From Favolaschia claudopus (taxonomy: Eukaryota; Basidiomycota; Agaricomycetes; Agaricales; Mycenaceae), in the NCBI GenBank assembly GCA_037176885.1, contig JAWWNJ010000069.1, forward strand, positions 248,001-312,000: a DNA stretch of 64,000 nt, in the 5' to 3' direction. Below, piece after piece: positions 39,358 to 47,777 of the stretch. The notes under the pieces were generated by a model. It was given only the letters and a program-made list of their open reading frames with translations, made no database searches and was not told the DNA's origin. The stretch's first letter is position 1. The number at the start of each line of letters is the position of its first letter. Made by a program: the position numbers and the translations under genes.

Positions 39358-39474
39358 GCCATCGAAGACAACGGTGTTCACTTCCTCTCTTTTGGGGTTT
39401 CTTACTCTTGGTTCGGAAGTTATCATCGGGTTCGACTCCCGACGACGGCTTGGAATAGCTCGATGCTTCTTTTT
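39358..39474 (+). ncRNA. tRNA-like element, + array copy 1
   Basis: The element spans 39358-39449. Acceptor GCCATCG/CGACGGC (one mismatch), a weak D-like hairpin around ACGGT, anticodon-like stem ACTTCC/GGAAGT, and T-arm TCGGG-TTCGACT-CCCGA. A T5 run at 39470-39474 would terminate Pol III. Confidence 0.6.
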
Positions 39475-39672
39475 AATCAATTCAGCCCCGCGCACTCGAG
39501 GCCTTTTTATCTTGCCGTAATTCAGACTCGACGATTGACTTCACTGTATAGCGGCGCGGCGCCGCTTCAAATGAAATTTAAAACTTAAGTAGACGTCATG
39601 GGTTTATTTATCCCACCTGGACCTCTGCAGTTGGGTAGTCGCTTGGCTAATCTCATTACTCAGAACAAAGCA

Positions 39673-39792
39673 GCCGTCGATGACCACGGTGGTCCTTTCC
39701 TTCCATGTGGCGGACTACAAGGGTTCGGAAGACCAGAATTGGGTTCGACTCCCAACGATGGCTATCGCATGTTCAGTGAACCATTTCTTTTT
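39673..39792 (+). ncRNA. tRNA-like element, + array copy 2
   Basis: The element spans 39673-39762. Acceptor GCCGTCG/CGATGGC pairs over 7 bp (one G-T). D-like hairpin GACC-ACGGT-GGTC, anticodon-like stem TTTCC/GGAAG with a loop of about 26 nt, T-arm TTGGG-TTCGACT-CCCAA. T5 at 39788-39792. Confidence 0.7.
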
Positions 39793-40004
39793 GTTCTGGT
39801 CTGCTTCTCGTGGCGAATATAATTATCAAGTTCATCCCCTACCCAACGGCCTGCGACCTGTTGGTCGCGACTTATTTCAACAATGAAGTTAGTAATTGAT
39901 TTTTCAACATGCCTTGAAGTACTGGTGGTTTGGATTCGCGTCGGTGTGTCTTCCACTCTTGAAAATTCTCTACGTATATGACACCGACGACGACAAGTAC
40001 GCCA

Positions 40005-40129
40005 GCTGTCGACGACCGCGGCGGTCCCTTCATATTCATTTCTTTTGTTCTTCAAATTCTGATTGATTGAAAAGTCTTCTGGGTTCGACTCTCAGCGACA
40101 GCATGATCATCCAACCCCAGATCCTTTTT
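40005..40129 (+). ncRNA. tRNA-like element, + array copy 3
   Basis: The element spans 40005-40102. Acceptor GCTGTCG/CGACAGC is perfect. D-like hairpin GACC-GCGGC-GGTC, anticodon-like stem TTCA/TGAA, T-arm CTGGG-TTCGACT-CTCAG. T5 at 40125-40129. Confidence 0.7.
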
Positions 40130-40329
40130 CTTTTTCACTCGGCCTCGTTCAAATCGTCGGGTAAGTAATGTGATACTGACTTCCCAAACTCACTCACCCT
40201 CCACAAGTTCTACATTGATACTTGATTTTAATCCGTCTGATCCTTCTTTCTTTCTACTACTGATACCCCTTCCCCCACCCGCTCACTCTGAGTCCTTTAC
40301 TAATATCAAGAACAGCAAGCAATAAATCA

Positions 40330-40442
40330 GCTGTTGAGGACCACGGTGGTCCCTTCCTCTGAGTAAATTTTTTCAAATGGACGTTCGGAACATGTACTGG
40401 GTTCGACTCCCAGCGACAGCATTCACAAACCAACTCTTTTTT
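40330..40442 (+). ncRNA. tRNA-like element, + array copy 4
   Basis: The element spans 40330-40420. Acceptor GCTGTTG/CGACAGC (one G-T). D-like hairpin GACC-ACGGT-GGTC, anticodon-like stem TTCC/GGAA, T-arm CTGGG-TTCGACT-CCCAG. T6 at 40437-40442. Confidence 0.7.
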
Positions 40443-42396: not shown

Positions 42397-42932
42397 CGTG
42401 GTCGTGGTGGGAAGCAAGGCAGGTAAGCGTCTAAGCGGGAGTGGGGTGTACATGTAAGCGGGAATGAGGCAGCGGAGCGTGGCACGGCTTTCGGGCCGAC
42501 TGATCAACGTAATCACTCTCACGCGGTTTCCGGCGATTCCGACGGAGGCCAAAGCGCCCGTAGGTCAAGCAGAAATGGAGGACACGATGCTGTATGTGCG
42601 CCCTGGGTGCGCCTTGACTGATTCTATTTGACAGAAAAGTGGTTGTCGAGTCTCTCTACGATACAAGAATTTTTTCTTTGATTTTTTCTGTTACCTATTT
42701 TACAGTTGAACCTCTCAGCCAACGAAAATAGCCCTCCTTCTCCTTCTCGGCCAGGCACCGGAGCGTATCGATCATGATATCAGACGTCGCTGTTCGCGCT
42801 AAATATGCATTGTATTGAGTCAGATCTAAACCAAGCTGTAATGTAAGACATTTACTTAAGTAAACAACCCGTGTTGACTTGGAATTTGTGCTTCAGGGGA
42901 CAAGAAAGCGAAGGATTGAAAGAAAATTGAGA
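42397..42932. other. Spacer upstream of the Ser/Pro-rich gene
   Basis: Contains its promoter region presumably; no other gene seen. Confidence 0.4.
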
Positions 42933-42993
42933 AAAAAAAATACCGCCTGGTTGTTTACACACGGCTGAACCCCGGCTCGAACGGGATTCAGCC
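42933..42993 (-). ncRNA. tRNA-like element, - array, reduced copy A
   Basis: On the minus strand GGCTGAA and TTCAGCC form a 7 bp stem directly around a T-arm (CCGTTCGAGCCGG). A T9 run (A9 on the plus strand at about 42933) follows about 20 nt downstream. D- and anticodon-like arms are missing or diverged. Confidence 0.4.
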
Positions 42994-43135
42994 ACTCCAC
43001 TCAACAGCTTTGTTCTCTACGATCTCTTATGCCGCTTAGACTGTATAGGCTGATTATGTCTTAGCGGAAACTACGCTGCAGAGGAGACCTCACCTTCAAC
43101 GCACAAAACAGCGGAAAATACGCATGAACACCCTA

Positions 43136-43173
43136 CGGGTGAACCCCGGGCCGAACGGGACTCAACCACCCAA
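43136..43173 (-). ncRNA. tRNA-like element, - array, reduced copy B
   Basis: T-arm CCCG-TTCGGCC-CGGG on the minus strand, closed by GGGTG/CACCC. Partial copy of the array family; only a T4 run lies downstream. Confidence 0.35.
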
Positions 43174-43445
43174 GTTTATTTATTTCCGCAGTCTCCGATA
43201 GACGGCTGTTGCTCCGGAATGCACTTCTTGAACTCGACAAGCGATTTGCGAATAAGAACTTGTCAGGAGTGCCAGTTCGATACATTTGGTCCGTCGTTGA
43301 CACTTTGCAACAATATTTCTCAGGAGGCCAAGCGGCAAGCCAGTGAAGGGAGTAAGTAAAGAAATCCCCCCCCCCCCCAAATTTGATTCAAATCTTATAT
43401 CCAAAATATAACCAGCGGCTTGACCAAAGAATTCATATCGCAAAA

Positions 43446-43573
43446 GAAAAAGAAAAAAATTGGCTATGCATGGATATCAACACAACCCGACCCCGAATCG
43501 AACGGGGGACCTGTTGACAAGTTTGGTGAAGCGCTTATTGATTGAACTCAGGCGCAGTCCGACTGCGACGGGT
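43446..43573 (-). ncRNA. tRNA-like element, - array unit 1
   Basis: The element is 43483-43573. Minus strand: D-like GCAG-TCGGA-CTGC, anticodon-like CCTG/CAGG, T-arm CCCCG-TTCGATT-CGGGG, 3' acceptor TCGGGTT. The 5' acceptor carries a small insertion. A-rich plus strand at 43446-43459 is a T-run downstream. A C-homopolymer lies about 70 bp further (near 43370). Confidence 0.6.
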
Positions 43574-43810
43574 GATTGGTATTTCGTAGGTAGAAGATCC
43601 CCGAGAGGTTGCAACGTGGCAGAAACCTTTAGTTACAATGGAGAGGTTAGGTTTTGCCCTATCATAGTCATTCAGAGTGTGAATCAATGATTTCCAGACA
43701 GCAGAAGGCCCAAAAATAATTGGAGCCGGTCCAGGTTCAAAAATACAAGCAAAGGCGAACCACAGTCGTGGCGTCGTGTTTGAATGGAAAGAATTTTCAT
43801 AACAGCATAC

Positions 43811-43897
43811 AACCCGATCCCGAATCGAACGGGGAGCCTGTTGACCATTCGAGAAGAGAACGTATTGAAGGCAGGCGCAGTCCATCTGCGACGGGTT
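43811..43897 (-). ncRNA. tRNA-like element, - array unit 2
   Basis: Minus strand: acceptor AACCCG/CGGGTT, A-box-like TCGCAGATGG, D-like GCAG-ATGGA-CTGC, anticodon-like GCCTG/CAGGC with a loop of about 31 nt, T-arm with TTCGATT. Nearly identical to unit 5, including about 90 bp of flanking sequence. The downstream T-run is weak. Confidence 0.65.
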
Positions 43898-44125
43898 GGT
43901 TTTAACTTTTTGCTGGCTAGAACATCTCCGAGACGTTACAAGTTAGAAATATTTACCTACAAAAGGAGAGAAAAACAGAGGTCATGTTGGCTCTTGTCCT
44001 ATTGAGAGTTTGAATCATCATCTTGTAGGCGGACAAGGCTGCGAAGAGACCCAAAGAACTCAGCGATTACAACACCCTTCACATTCGAATTAAATCCTAC
44101 TGATATTCAAAATAGAAGCAAAGGG

Positions 44126-44256
44126 GAACGTTGAATAAAAAGAATCTTCGCACCAGCACCGTACAACCCGACCCGAATCGAACGGGAAACCTGTTAACAA
44201 TTTGGTGGCTGAAGAACTATTCAAGAAGGACAGGTGCAATCCATTTGCCACGGGTT
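44126..44256 (-). ncRNA. tRNA-like element, - array unit 3
   Basis: The element is 44165-44256. D-like stem GCAA/TTGC and anticodon-like stem ACCTG/CAGGT are compensatory variants of unit 2. T-arm CCCG-TTCGATT-CGGG, acceptor AACCCG/CGGGTT. T5 about 25 nt downstream. Confidence 0.7.
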
Positions 44257-44403
44257 GGTATTCGATTCTCATTCAGGCACGCAAGCCTCCAAATGGGACG
44301 AAAAGCATTCACCGATTACAACCCCCTCCACATTCGAATTAACTTGAAATCATACATCCCAAATACAAGGAGAGGCGAACCACAAAGGAGAGTTCATATT
44401 GAA

Positions 44404-44515
44404 CAAAAAGGTCTTCCCGTCAAGCATACAACCCGACCCCGAATCGAACAGGAAACCTGTTAACATCCATTGCCAGCAGTTATTCAAGACAGGCACAGTC
44501 TACCTGCGACGGGTT
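44404..44515 (-). ncRNA. tRNA-like element, - array unit 4
   Basis: The element is 44430-44515. D-like GCAG/CTGT and anticodon-like GCCTG/CAGGT each keep pairing through a G-T wobble. T-arm with TTCGATT, acceptor AACCCG/CGGGTT. T5 about 20 nt downstream. Confidence 0.65.
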
Positions 44516-44756
44516 GGTATCCGGCAGTGGTGATCCCCATATATGAATTCTACAAGTCAGAAATAATTGGGAGAGAAACCTAGAGATCAAGTTCTGCCTT
44601 ATCATAGTCGCTGAGAGTTTGAATCAATATCTTTATCTTTCAGGCAGACAAAGCTGCGAAGGCACGAAAATAACTCTAGCCGGTCCAGGTTCAAATCCTA
44701 TATCCGAAAAATAAGCAAAGGCGGACCAAAACCATATGCATGAATTCATGTTGAAT

Positions 44757-44866
44757 CAAAAAGCTTTTCCTCTGTGAATACAACCCGACCCCGAATCGAA
44801 CGGGAACCCTGTTAACCATTCGAGAAGAGAACGTATTGAAGACAGGCGCAGTCCATGCGACGGGTT
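44757..44866 (-). ncRNA. tRNA-like element, - array unit 5
   Basis: The element is 44782-44866; near-duplicate of unit 2 with one base missing in the D-like arm. Acceptor AACCCG/CGGGTT. T5 about 20 nt downstream. Confidence 0.6.
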
Positions 44867-45113
44867 GGTTTTTGCTGGCTAGAACATCTCCGAGACGTTA
44901 CAAGTTAGAAATATTTACCTACAAAAGGAGAGAAACATAGAGGTAACGTTTTGCCCTCTCAGAGTCGCTGAATCAATCCCTTTCAAGAGACAAGCCAAGC
45001 AAGCCACGAAATTATTTGCGAGCAACCAAAAGCCAGTGCAGATTCGACTCCTGTATCGAAATTCCAAGCGCAGGAAATCTGCAACGGGCTGATCCGAGAA
45101 TTCATGGCGCTTA

Positions 45114-45236
45114 GAAAAAAAAACCGTTCAAGTTTTATGCCTTCATGGACACAACCCCGAGTCGAACGGGGAAACTGTGACCAAATTCGTGCTCGAAGAT
45201 CCATTCAAGACAGGGGCAGCCCAGCTGCAACGGGTT
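45114..45236 (-). ncRNA. tRNA-like element, - array unit 6
   Basis: The element is 45153-45236. D-like GCAG-CTGGG-CTGC, T-arm CCCCG-TTCGACT-CGGGG. The 3' acceptor strand is shortened by a 4 nt deletion. A T9 run follows about 30 nt downstream. Confidence 0.55.
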
Positions 45237-45334
45237 GGTGGTACTGATGAAATGCCCTAGATAATCCGAGTAATGAGTCAGCAGATTTTGCAAAGGGAGA
45301 GCAAAACTGGGAGCAAAACAGACAAGTGCATCAT

Positions 45335-45420
45335 ACAGCTCGCCCCGAATCGAACGGGATCTCATGCCGGTGTTATTTGATCTTGCAAGAAATTTTTCCA
45401 ACTCGCACAGGAGCAGAAGA
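45335..45420 (-). ncRNA. tRNA-like element, - array unit 7 (diverged)
   Basis: T-arm TCCCG-TTCGATT-CGGGG is intact with 3' acceptor CGAGCTG, but a pairing 5' strand is not evident. A diverged or partial copy. Confidence 0.4.
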
Positions 45421-45569
45421 TCCAGAAGAGCTCTCCGAATATCGAGTAAGACTTGAGTAATACCGTAAACTCTTTCGACTCTGATCTCACATCCTTATTT
45501 GGAATGTCTGGCTTCAATAAAGGTCCCTGAAGCGAAGAAAATCAGATAAAGCTCGTGTCGGGAGCCATA

Positions 45570-45689
45570 AAAAGAAGGAAGAAATTGACCACGGTGCACA
45601 ACCCGACCCCGAATCGAACGGGACTCTGCTGCTACGATTCCATTTCGACCCTATACGCGAACGCAGAAGCGGACCATCCGCAACGGATT
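45570..45689 (-). ncRNA. tRNA-like element, - array unit 8
   Basis: The element is 45600-45689. D-like stem GCGG/CCGC and anticodon-like stem TCTGC/GCAGA differ from other units at both sides of the pairs. T-arm CCCG-TTCGATT-CGGG, acceptor AATCCG/CGGGTT with a wobble. T5 downstream. Confidence 0.7.
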
Positions 45690-45790
45690 GCTTGTCGTGG
45701 CGCTTTCAATGGAGATGCAATGAGTCGATGAGCTGTGAGTGTACGGACCGCGCAATGCAAGATCCAACATGGAAGTAAGGAGCAAGCGAA

Positions 45791-45850
45791 ACATGAAAAA
45801 ATACTTTCGTCCAATCATCCACTCAACTCGACCCCGAATCGAACGGAATC
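45791..45850 (-). ncRNA. tRNA-like element, - array unit 9 (partial)
   Basis: T-arm with TTCGATT and the 3' acceptor CGAGTT are present, with T6 about 20 nt downstream; the 5' half is missing or unrecognisable. Confidence 0.4.
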
Positions 45851-46192
45851 GGTTGGGAAAGGAAAAGTAGGCGAGCGAACTGAAGTCACGAGTGTACGTG
45901 AGATAGACCACTAGCTCGTTGCAAGGCGGAGTCAAAGCGTGGGAGTAAGACGGGCAGATGCGAGATAGAAAGAAGTAGATACCGCTGGTTTCTACTTCAA
46001 AACTTCAGGGGCAACGAAGAAGACAAAATTGGAAGGATAACGATATCGGCGCAAAAACATATCCGAAATCATACCTGTCGATGAAACTGGACGCCATAGT
46101 CAACTCCATTGTTCAACCTACACGCAATGCGTCAGAGAATTGACAATGCGAGCGTAAGTCATTCAAACTCACCCGTTGACCATATCCTCATC
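45851..46192. other. Spacer between - array and F-box-like gene
   Basis: No gene or further array unit recognised. Confidence 0.4.
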
Positions 46193-47777
46193 CTACATCG
46201 TGTCACGTAGAAGCCTCCCCACCTCAGCCCACAACTCCAACCGCCTGCATTGCGCAGCAAACTCTGGATCGTCATCATCACCCCCCGGACCCACAGGGTC
46301 TGAACTATGAACGAAGGAAATGTTGGGGAATAAGCAGGAAATGGATGCCGCCACCGCCTTTGCATGTGTAATGAGAGATTCCTCCATGAACAGTCTCCGC
46401 AGAGCCGGATGAAGGGGATACGGGTCGTCGTCCAAAGCGAGAGATGGGACGGCTCGAGCGTCCAAGCAAATCTGCAGACTCTCGAGCTTGGGACAGTGTT
46501 TTGCGAAGGAGAGCAAGGCGCGGAGGGTGATGGATGGGTCGTTTTGTCGCGGGCTCATAAGCTCGAGCGCCTCGAGTTTAGGCCATGCCGTAGCCATGGC
46601 ATGCATATCTTCGTTGTCGAAACGATACGGGTACAGGAGTTGTACCGAGCTGAGGTTGGGAAACAGCAGGAGATGTGTCCACCCTCGGCTGGATACCAAA
46701 GATTTTGTGTCAGGAATCTGGATGGAAGAGAAGGTGATCTCGATTGTGTGAAGTGCATCACGAGAGCAATGCTCCGATAGAGCGCAAAATAGCGCCTCCA
46801 ATGATGTGGCAGAAGGAAGGGATATAAAGTCGATCTTGAACGATGTCAAAGGCGAGCGGCCCGAAGACTGAACCAGCCTCGTCACACGATCAAGCGAAAG
46901 TCCCTCTCCGCTGAGTCCAGTGAACGCGAAGGCGGAAAGATCCTGAAAGAGTTGTCCGCGAGGCAACCCTCCAGGTAGAACCGATGCGTCGGACATGTCA
47001 AATGTCAAGGATTTGAAGCCTCCTAGTTTCCCCAGGTGCAGAATCGCGTCCGCATCAATCGCGCTAGTAAGGTGTAGGGAAGCGAGAGTCGGGAATGCGC
47101 AAACAAACCGCGACAAGATCACTACATCGACTGAATCAATGTTTGCCTGAAGTTGAATGCTAGTGAGGGAAGGGCGTGTGCGGGATATCGTGGCGAGGAA
47201 CTGCTCAACCAACTTGCCCGATAGCAGTATCATTGATAAGTGCGAGAGCCGCGGACCCAGGACCCGGTCGATATCCAAGAGAGCATCAGTGAAGGTGGGT
47301 ACCCAGTGCAGCTCGACGAGATTGGGCAGCAAATAGTTGTTGGCGCCCCGGTAGCGGAGCAATTTCATCACTGCCGCCAAGTCATGCAGTAGAACTTCGT
47401 CAATGGTGCAAATCTTGACGCGTCGACCGTAGTAATCGGCTCGCTCCCAGTCTGATGGTATAGGAGGGCGATGGAACACCTAATCAAGACGGCTGAGGTA
47501 AATTCCTGGAAATTCCTTACAAAGCACTCACCAAATCAGATTCCTCGAAGTCCTTGATGTTTGAGATATCCTCCGGCAAACATCGGATAAGGTTGACGAG
47601 AGTTTCTTGCTTCTTCCACAACTGATTCACAGCTGCTTCGTGAAAGACGCGACATCGAGCAAGAGCTGCTAGCGTTGGTGAGTCGACATTCTCCCCAGAC
47701 CCGAGCTCGTAGTTATCAGGATCAAAATGGGAAACGATCATTGGCGGAATTTCCGGAATTTCGAGAGCACGATGCAT
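46193..47777 (-). CDS. F-box-like protein with LRR region
   Basis: Coding order 47777-47532 and 47479-46193 with a 52 bp phase-0 intron; 510 residues. The first exon encodes a degenerate F-box: LEIPEIPPMIVSHFD, then LAALARCRVFHEAAVNQLWK. The second exon starts VFHRPPIPSDWERADYYGRR, a conserved opening of this basidiomycete family (compare EARDWNRVSYYTRR at 31.43 kb). LRR-like repeats follow (LPNLVELHW, FPTLASLHL, WPKLEALELM). The same architecture as the gene at 31097 suggests duplication within the family. The ATG at 47777 is preferred over upstream non-ATG codons. Confidence 0.8.

Follow-up and report, generated by a model that had tools for sequence, protein, structure and literature searches.

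Tandem tRNA-like elements with conserved cloverleaf stems in Favolaschia claudopus, a genome-wide family of putative non-decoding RNA genes

Do tandem elements that resemble tRNA genes specify an RNA whose fold is maintained and, if so, what kind of RNA would it be? The question is raised by contig JAWWNJ010000069.1 (C69) of Favolaschia claudopus (Mycenaceae), from which a stretch of 64,000 nt was analyzed (hereafter, the window). On its minus strand, positions 42963–45883 hold 11 copies of a tRNA T-arm sequence, seven of them in cloverleaf units and four in hairpin or degenerate ones. A sequence-only reading had described about eleven elements recurring every 260–360 bp, and had taken double changes in their stems as strong evidence for a maintained RNA fold. 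Here, we find that the array belongs to a large genome-wide family in which stem pairing is conserved. Judging from sequence comparison, its units are probably RNA polymerase III (Pol III)-type genes for tRNA-derived, non-decoding RNAs with an intron-like loop.

The array itself is real. With up to three mismatches, the T-arm sequence CCCGTTCGATTCGGG matches the minus strand of the window 11 times (42971–45847) and the plus strand once (48143), against 2.3 matches expected by chance and a maximum of six in 100 window shuffles. An independent descriptor combining T arm and T-run identified 11 places in the whole window, seven in this array and four in a plus-strand array, compared with one in reversed sequence and none when an A-run was required. 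A typical unit reads CAACCCG-T-C-GCAG-ATGGA-CTGC-G-CCTGT-(~28–35 nt) in its 5′ half and -ACAGG-TTC-CCCG-TTCGATT-CGGG-GT-CGGGTTG in its 3′ half. All previously quoted variants of the D stem (GCAG/CTGC, GCAA/TTGC, and GCGG/CCGC) and of the anticodon (AC) stem (GCCTG/CAGGC, ACCTG/CAGGT, and TCTGC/GCAGA) were found in the array. Most copies had also been stated to have T5–T9 downstream; 8 of 11 do, ~18–25 nt 3′ of the element, the three without being those at 45358, 43833, and 43159. The count and spacing need some adjustment: eleven is correct for T-arm copies and generous for full units, since only seven are cloverleaves, and start-to-start distances are 174–366 bp, a wider range than proposed.

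The same T arm recurs across the genome, with 242 exact occurrences (none for the reversed control) and 623 with one mismatch (8 for the reversed control), all counts resting on the one sequence CCCGTTCGATTCGGG. The genome report (PMC10905254) describes a 265 Mb PacBio/Falcon draft with 86.8% of BUSCO genes duplicated; the assembly therefore appears to hold both haplotypes, and a haploid genome may thus have about half these numbers. From the arrays and the surroundings of many of the first 100 T-arm places listed, we fetched 162 copies (≤2 mismatches, distinct over 75 nt, some close to identical), which formed 90 clusters at 75% identity. Of the 162 copies, 131 had a run of five or more Ts (T5+) 25–60 nt beyond the T arm, as did 71 of the 90 cluster representatives, whereas A5+ runs occurred at the same place in 3/162 and T5+ runs at other offsets in 21/162, 8/162, 11/161, and 8/147. 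A cloverleaf with four paired stems was parsed in 61 copies, 48 of which had T5+ 16–28 nt beyond the acceptor.

Pairing in this sample exceeded that of controls. An acceptor score of at least 6 of 7, together with D and AC stems, was reached by 50/162 copies (16/90 when taking the first per cluster), compared with 33/810 when the 3′ strand was swapped between clusters and 0/162 when the upstream sequence was shuffled. All three stems were near perfect in 27/162 copies and 7/90 clusters, against 7/810 after swapping. The acceptors that pair are specific to their clusters and include CAACCCG/CGGGTTG, GGTCCAT/ATGGACC, GCCTCGA/TCGAGGC, GACCTGA/TCAGGTC, GACTCGA/TCGAGTC, and AGAACCG/CGGTTCT. These sequences, which differ from cluster to cluster and still match, provide the strongest evidence for pairing. 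A hairpin reading of the unparsed copies was also tried: six of 162 scored at least 4 (105/3240 swapped) and the same six reached 5 (17/3240 swapped), and a hairpin therefore suits a few units at array ends but does not describe the family.

Divergence was then compared along 53 overlapping homologous alignments spanning a parsed unit and both flanks, in which the partner did not have to fold; since they were forced to reach the flanks, these alignments favor conserved flanks. The acceptor, D, and AC stems together differed at 92/1696 positions (5%; acceptor alone 30/742, AC stem 38/530), the T stem at 16/424, and the T loop at 17/371. By comparison, differences were found at 484/1746 positions (28%) of the AC loop, 305/954 (32%) of the 18-nt 3′ trailer, 221/1166 of the T-run surroundings, and 1206/6002 (20%) of the flanks. 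Eight pairs chosen on their flanks, both members being parsed, displayed the same pattern (stems 8/320, AC loop 62/278, trailer 31/144, 5′ flank 169/800). Within the loop, across all families, identity was 0.66–0.86 for the first seven and last five positions against 0.62 for the interior, with two of these twelve positions barely above the latter, as would be the case if the loop ends were part of the RNA and an intron lay between them.

Because subfamilies differ by one position in acceptor register, double changes were evaluated in several narrower alignments. In a model-fitted alignment (34 distinct rows, five locus copies), which leans towards structure, 94.6% of cells were paired, 11 of 20 pairs had double changes, and none of 500 shuffles reached any of five measures. 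In an unfitted MAFFT alignment of 18 units, the observed number of double-changed cells was reached by 3/500 shuffles, the covariation score by 7/500, the percentage paired by 10/500, and the number of pair types by 446/500. In strict register and within clusters, the D stem displayed 12 double changes and the AC stem six, all paired, while 3.0 and 1.4, respectively, would be expected if the two sides were independent.

Several observations weigh against this interpretation. Double changes in the MAFFT alignment affected 3 of 20 pairs, a number reached by 75/500 shuffles, and the within-cluster double changes of the D and AC stems came from one site each, both in the family of the window array. 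Acceptor double changes within clusters showed no excess (three, one of them paired, against 3.2 expected); most acceptor diversity therefore lies between clusters, where different founders could account for part of it. Folding energies of 11 units were weak (z of −0.2 to −2.2), the minimum-energy fold of several units was not the cloverleaf, and RNAalifold recovered the acceptor, D, and T stems from the MAFFT alignment but not the AC stem. Among the 162 anchors, 101 fell below the descriptor score of 12.5, including several near misses and others without a clear cloverleaf, and the 53 overlapping alignments, some of them in both directions, are not independent, so that p-values are not meaningful. 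In addition, the A box is imperfect: relative to the consensus TRGYNNARNNGG, 54/61 parsed units have T at position 7/8 and the D loop contains GG in 59/61, and this loop is shorter. Overall, the maintained RNA fold claimed earlier is nevertheless supported. The support from this locus taken alone is real but modest, and the case is strong genome-wide, where differing acceptors pair and conservation of the stems greatly exceeds that of loops and flanks.

Which kind of gene would require such a fold? The combination of B box, cloverleaf, free trailer, and T-run is the anatomy of a Pol III gene with a tRNA-like trimmed product. T arms of the family include the B box core GTTCGANTC, and the T-runs, frequent where A-runs are rare, are placed as expected for the terminator of a Pol III type 2 gene. 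We propose that the T arm doubles as the B box (GTTCGATTC) and that the T5+ usually found 16–28 nt past the acceptor acts as the terminator. The predicted transcript would adopt a near-canonical cloverleaf with a 7-bp acceptor, a 4-bp D stem, a 5-bp anticodon-type stem, and a 4–5-bp T stem closed by TTCGATT. Its D loop of 4–7 nt, nearly always with GG, would form an elbow with the T loop and give an L shape. The anticodon loop would be replaced by a loop of 20–45 nt with an interior that drifts as introns or spacers do and with a few bases at either end that are partly kept. Following Pol III transcription, RNase P and RNase Z would presumably trim the ends, and the loop may be removed or dispensable. 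The role we favor is that of a structural RNA engaging tRNA-binding or processing proteins rather than the ribosome. Units would have multiplied by local tandem duplication, every cluster retaining its own acceptor stem and selection holding the stems.

The best rival to this reading, although an unlikely one, is that the clusters act as DNA-level TFIIIC sites, i.e., extra-TFIIIC (ETC) or chromosome-organizing clamp (COC) boundaries, in which arrays of B boxes insulate chromatin and any RNA is incidental. TFIIIC-only boundary clusters are known in yeasts, every unit carries an exact or near-exact B-box core, and about 11 B boxes are arrayed here on one strand in an intergenic stretch; if only the D and T arms are considered, their conservation could reflect A and B boxes. 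However, a DNA site does not need different acceptor strands to match in each cluster, and this cluster-specific pairing is left unexplained. Neither does it require a T-run at a fixed distance, and B boxes devoid of a selected RNA fold do not account for acceptor and AC stems that diverge so much less than the AC loop and flanks.

Somewhat less probable still is an origin as remnants of tRNA-headed retroelements, either tRNA-derived short interspersed nuclear elements (SINEs), of which AfuSINE2 is reportedly a fungal example, or Helenus-type terminal-repeat retrotransposons in miniature (TRIMs) with tRNA-like long terminal repeats (LTRs), perhaps as LTR-internal-LTR tandems. Such elements do exist in fungi: Helenus TRIMs are reported from several Agaricomycetes, among other fungi, with tRNA-like calls that have senseless anticodons (Kojima 2024, PMC10886601). 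Dispersed near-identical copies, however, were not seen. Probes for four subfamilies yielded at least 20 matches in five arrays, at least 1, at least 19 on three contigs, and at least 5, and among the matches listed all were confined to the locus of origin and its apparent homologues (no search was aimed at LTR ends, primer-binding sites, polypurine tracts, 3′ tails, or target-site duplications). The probe with at least 19 matches (L044) hit contigs C8, C274, and C101, and we infer that the latter two carry homologous copies of the C8 locus. Moreover, constrained stems amid diverging flanks would be unexpected of dead insertions.

It is very unlikely that the units are genuine, if odd, intron-bearing tRNAs that still decode, such as suppressor tRNAs. 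In the family of the window array, the loop often reads CUUSAA...GUUA, like positions 32–37 and 38 around an intron. Intron-bearing tRNAs have an anticodon-intron pair (the A-I rule), and C-G occurs at the corresponding positions in 12/61 parsed units, mostly of this same family. Of the four ordinary tRNAs retrieved from the genome, one also has a predicted 34-nt intron. Yet no loop-end position is less conserved in this very family than the middle base of the would-be anticodon (0.49), U33 is present in 29/61 parsed units, the loop as parsed (20–45 nt) has no constant anticodon, and other subfamilies have no anticodon-like loop at all. The D loops are short, while in all four retrieved tRNAs the D loop is normal and the T arm is a different one. 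Searches for known tRNAs agreed: the RF00005 covariance model gave no window match at its gathering score and none at E ≤ 10 in 42500–46200, and Rfam matches at E ≤ 10 in the array region were limited to chance-level MS2 and snoTBR5. ARAGORN called no tRNA in the window by default, and its intron and relaxed modes returned scattered weak calls with mutually inconsistent anticodons. The genome does encode at least 58 ordinary tRNAs scoring 37–61 bits (63 of 8616 candidates scored), and comparison by eye placed none of them at the 100 listed T-arm places. The units thus do not look like decoding tRNAs. As improbable are decaying tRNA pseudogenes without present function, since, although some units are degenerate (45335–45433 and the hairpin types) and 101/162 copies are unparsed, loop and flanks of parsed copies have changed roughly four to five times as much as the stems, and T-runs persist.

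Individual units of the window array, all on the minus strand, vary in completeness. R1 is a model trained on these array units, so that its scores for the cloverleaves (67–96 bits) are not independent. The first unit (45823–45883) is of the hairpin type (CCAACCGATTCCG TTCGATT CGGGGTCGAGTTG; T6 at 45801–45796; R1 24.4 bits, E 2e-4). It is followed by a cloverleaf at 45598–45691 (acceptor CAATCCG/CGGGTTG, D stem GCGG/CCGC, AC stem TCTGC/GCAGA; T5 at 45573–45569; 69.9 bits), by the one degenerate unit at 45335–45433 (acceptor AGCTC/GAGCT, no T5+; 18 bits), and by a cloverleaf with a shortened 3′ acceptor strand at 45149–45238 (T9 at 45123–45115; 67.3 bits). Cloverleaves continue at 44780–44868 (acceptor CAACCCG/CGGGTTG; T5 at 44762–44758; 89.1 bits), 44428–44517 (AC stem CCTGT/ACAGG; T5 at 44409–44405; 90.6 bits), 44163–44258 (D stem GCAA/TTGC, AC loop of 35 nt; T5 at 44141–44137; 91.1 bits), 43809–43899 (D stem GCAG/CTGC, AC stem GCCTG/CAGGC, no T5+ found; 95.7 bits), and 43482–43579 (2-nt insertion in the acceptor; T7 at 43459–43453; 82 bits). 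The last two are hairpins, one at 43135–43173, in which the T arm is directly continued by an acceptor-like stem stacked on it (no T5+; 12.8 bits), the other at 42963–42993, identified from sequence and T-arm matches (GGCTGAATCCCG TTCGAGC CGGGGTTCAGCC; T9 at 42940–42932), so that the three hairpin units sit at the two ends of the array. The spacer at 44688–44698 contains, on the plus strand and thus opposite to the array, GGTTCAAATCC, a B-box/T-arm sequence as in ordinary tRNAs, and a related repeat is found at 43704–43741.

The plus-strand array (39358–40422) is smaller and its four units share the plan of the minus-strand ones but have a different T arm (TGGGTTCGACTCCCA or variants of it), with double changes in acceptor and T stems and T-runs in 4/4 units. 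These lie at 39358–39451 (T stem TCGGG/CCCGA), 39671–39764 (acceptor AGCCGTCG/CGATGGCT, D arm GACC ACGGT GGTC), 40002–40104 (acceptor GCTGTCG/CGACAGC), and 40330–40422 (acceptor GCTGTTG/CGACAGC). Genome-wide, and with ordinary tRNAs included, TGGGTTCGACTCCCA has 52 exact matches (listed rows counted) and, when one mismatch is allowed, 314 compared with 13 in the control, and is likewise clustered. Copies resembling the plus-strand array occur within ~10 kb of the arrays on contigs C15, C1, C67, and C231, and further clusters of this second type (0–1 mismatch) were noted at C7:512825–774343 and C8:4999–39887.

The window array is flanked by an open reading frame (ORF) at 46193–47479 that, over 96% of its length, matches a Favolaschia claudopus protein with full identity; its relatives carry an F-box name, and a Pfam scan of the ORF itself gave no match. 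Related arrays were found on C15 and, in three near-identical versions, on C1, C67, and C231. Relative to these, the window locus displays 92–94% identity on the F-box side, ~66–76% in array pieces, and 74–78% on the other side, and the array is therefore not uniquely divergent. The loci on C231 (L010), C67 (L011), and C1 (L012) are ~99% identical copies, each within ~15–20 kb of a contig end, C69 (the window) and C15 being two diverged copies. A single unit on C1 (position 4996938, L022) lies beside a paralogue of the flanking F-box-like protein.

Two ideas about partners were rejected. A guide-RNA function was examined with three loops, which matched only their own unit or an allelic copy genome-wide at ≤3 mismatches. 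A partner protein was sought among 508 ORFs of 35 loci, and inter-locus matches at E ≤ 1e-12 came from homologous locus copies and from L022, where an F-box-like ORF and another window ORF were matched. Pfam domains in 20 of the 508 ORFs, beside other clusters, were ZZ finger/DUF7514, BCS1 lid, NACHT, ankyrin, and DUF6699, each hit once; apart from the one paralogue at L022, no protein family recurred beside unrelated clusters in these comparisons.

Rfam and default ARAGORN were blind to the window units, while ~620 T-arm copies are present over both haplotypes. If RNAs are made from them, the fungus would maintain several hundred non-decoding tRNA-shaped transcripts, with bearing on tRNA processing load, on the origin of new RNA families from tRNA genes, and on the interpretation of false tRNA predictions in large mushroom genomes. 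More tentatively, the family may represent a lineage-specific repertoire of several hundred L-shaped tRNA-like RNAs, with selected scaffolds around a fast-drifting 20–45 nt loop, and as such a novel class of non-coding RNA gene families in eukaryotes. Were this the case, excision of the loop by the tRNA splicing endonuclease could yield anticodon-less tRNA mimics or, alternatively, liberate small RNAs of hundreds of kinds, either linear or circular. Arrays in other species, sought via a spurious ORF, gave no match, and no report of such an RNA family in fungi was found in the part of the open-access search results considered.

Among known systems, canonical tRNAs (RF00005) and fungal intron-bearing tRNAs share with the units the cloverleaf, the T loop TTCGATT, GG in the D loop, T at position 8, an internal B box, and a short trailer followed by a T-run. 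Unlike canonical tRNAs, the family has a short D loop, a long AC loop, and 1–2 nt between its 4-bp T stem and the acceptor, without an Rfam or consistent ARAGORN match, and consists of hundreds of diverse, locally clustered copies. B-box arrays are also a feature of yeast ETC and COC sites, whereas here stem pairing and a terminator-like T-run appear to be maintained as well. Fungal SINEs such as AfuSINE2 and Helenus TRIMs have tRNA-like sequence, A and B boxes, false anticodons, and many copies in common with the family, but the four subfamilies probed here are bound to single loci and their stems are conserved after duplication. Finally, Pol III tRNA-like non-coding RNAs include vault RNA, the tRNA-miRNA precursors of gammaherpesviruses, and mascRNA. 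Like the putative transcripts described here, these are tRNA-like or B-box-bearing and non-decoding, mascRNA being tRNA-like by processing. They are few per genome, however, whereas the F. claudopus assembly holds hundreds of T-arm loci, with a loop that drifts fast.

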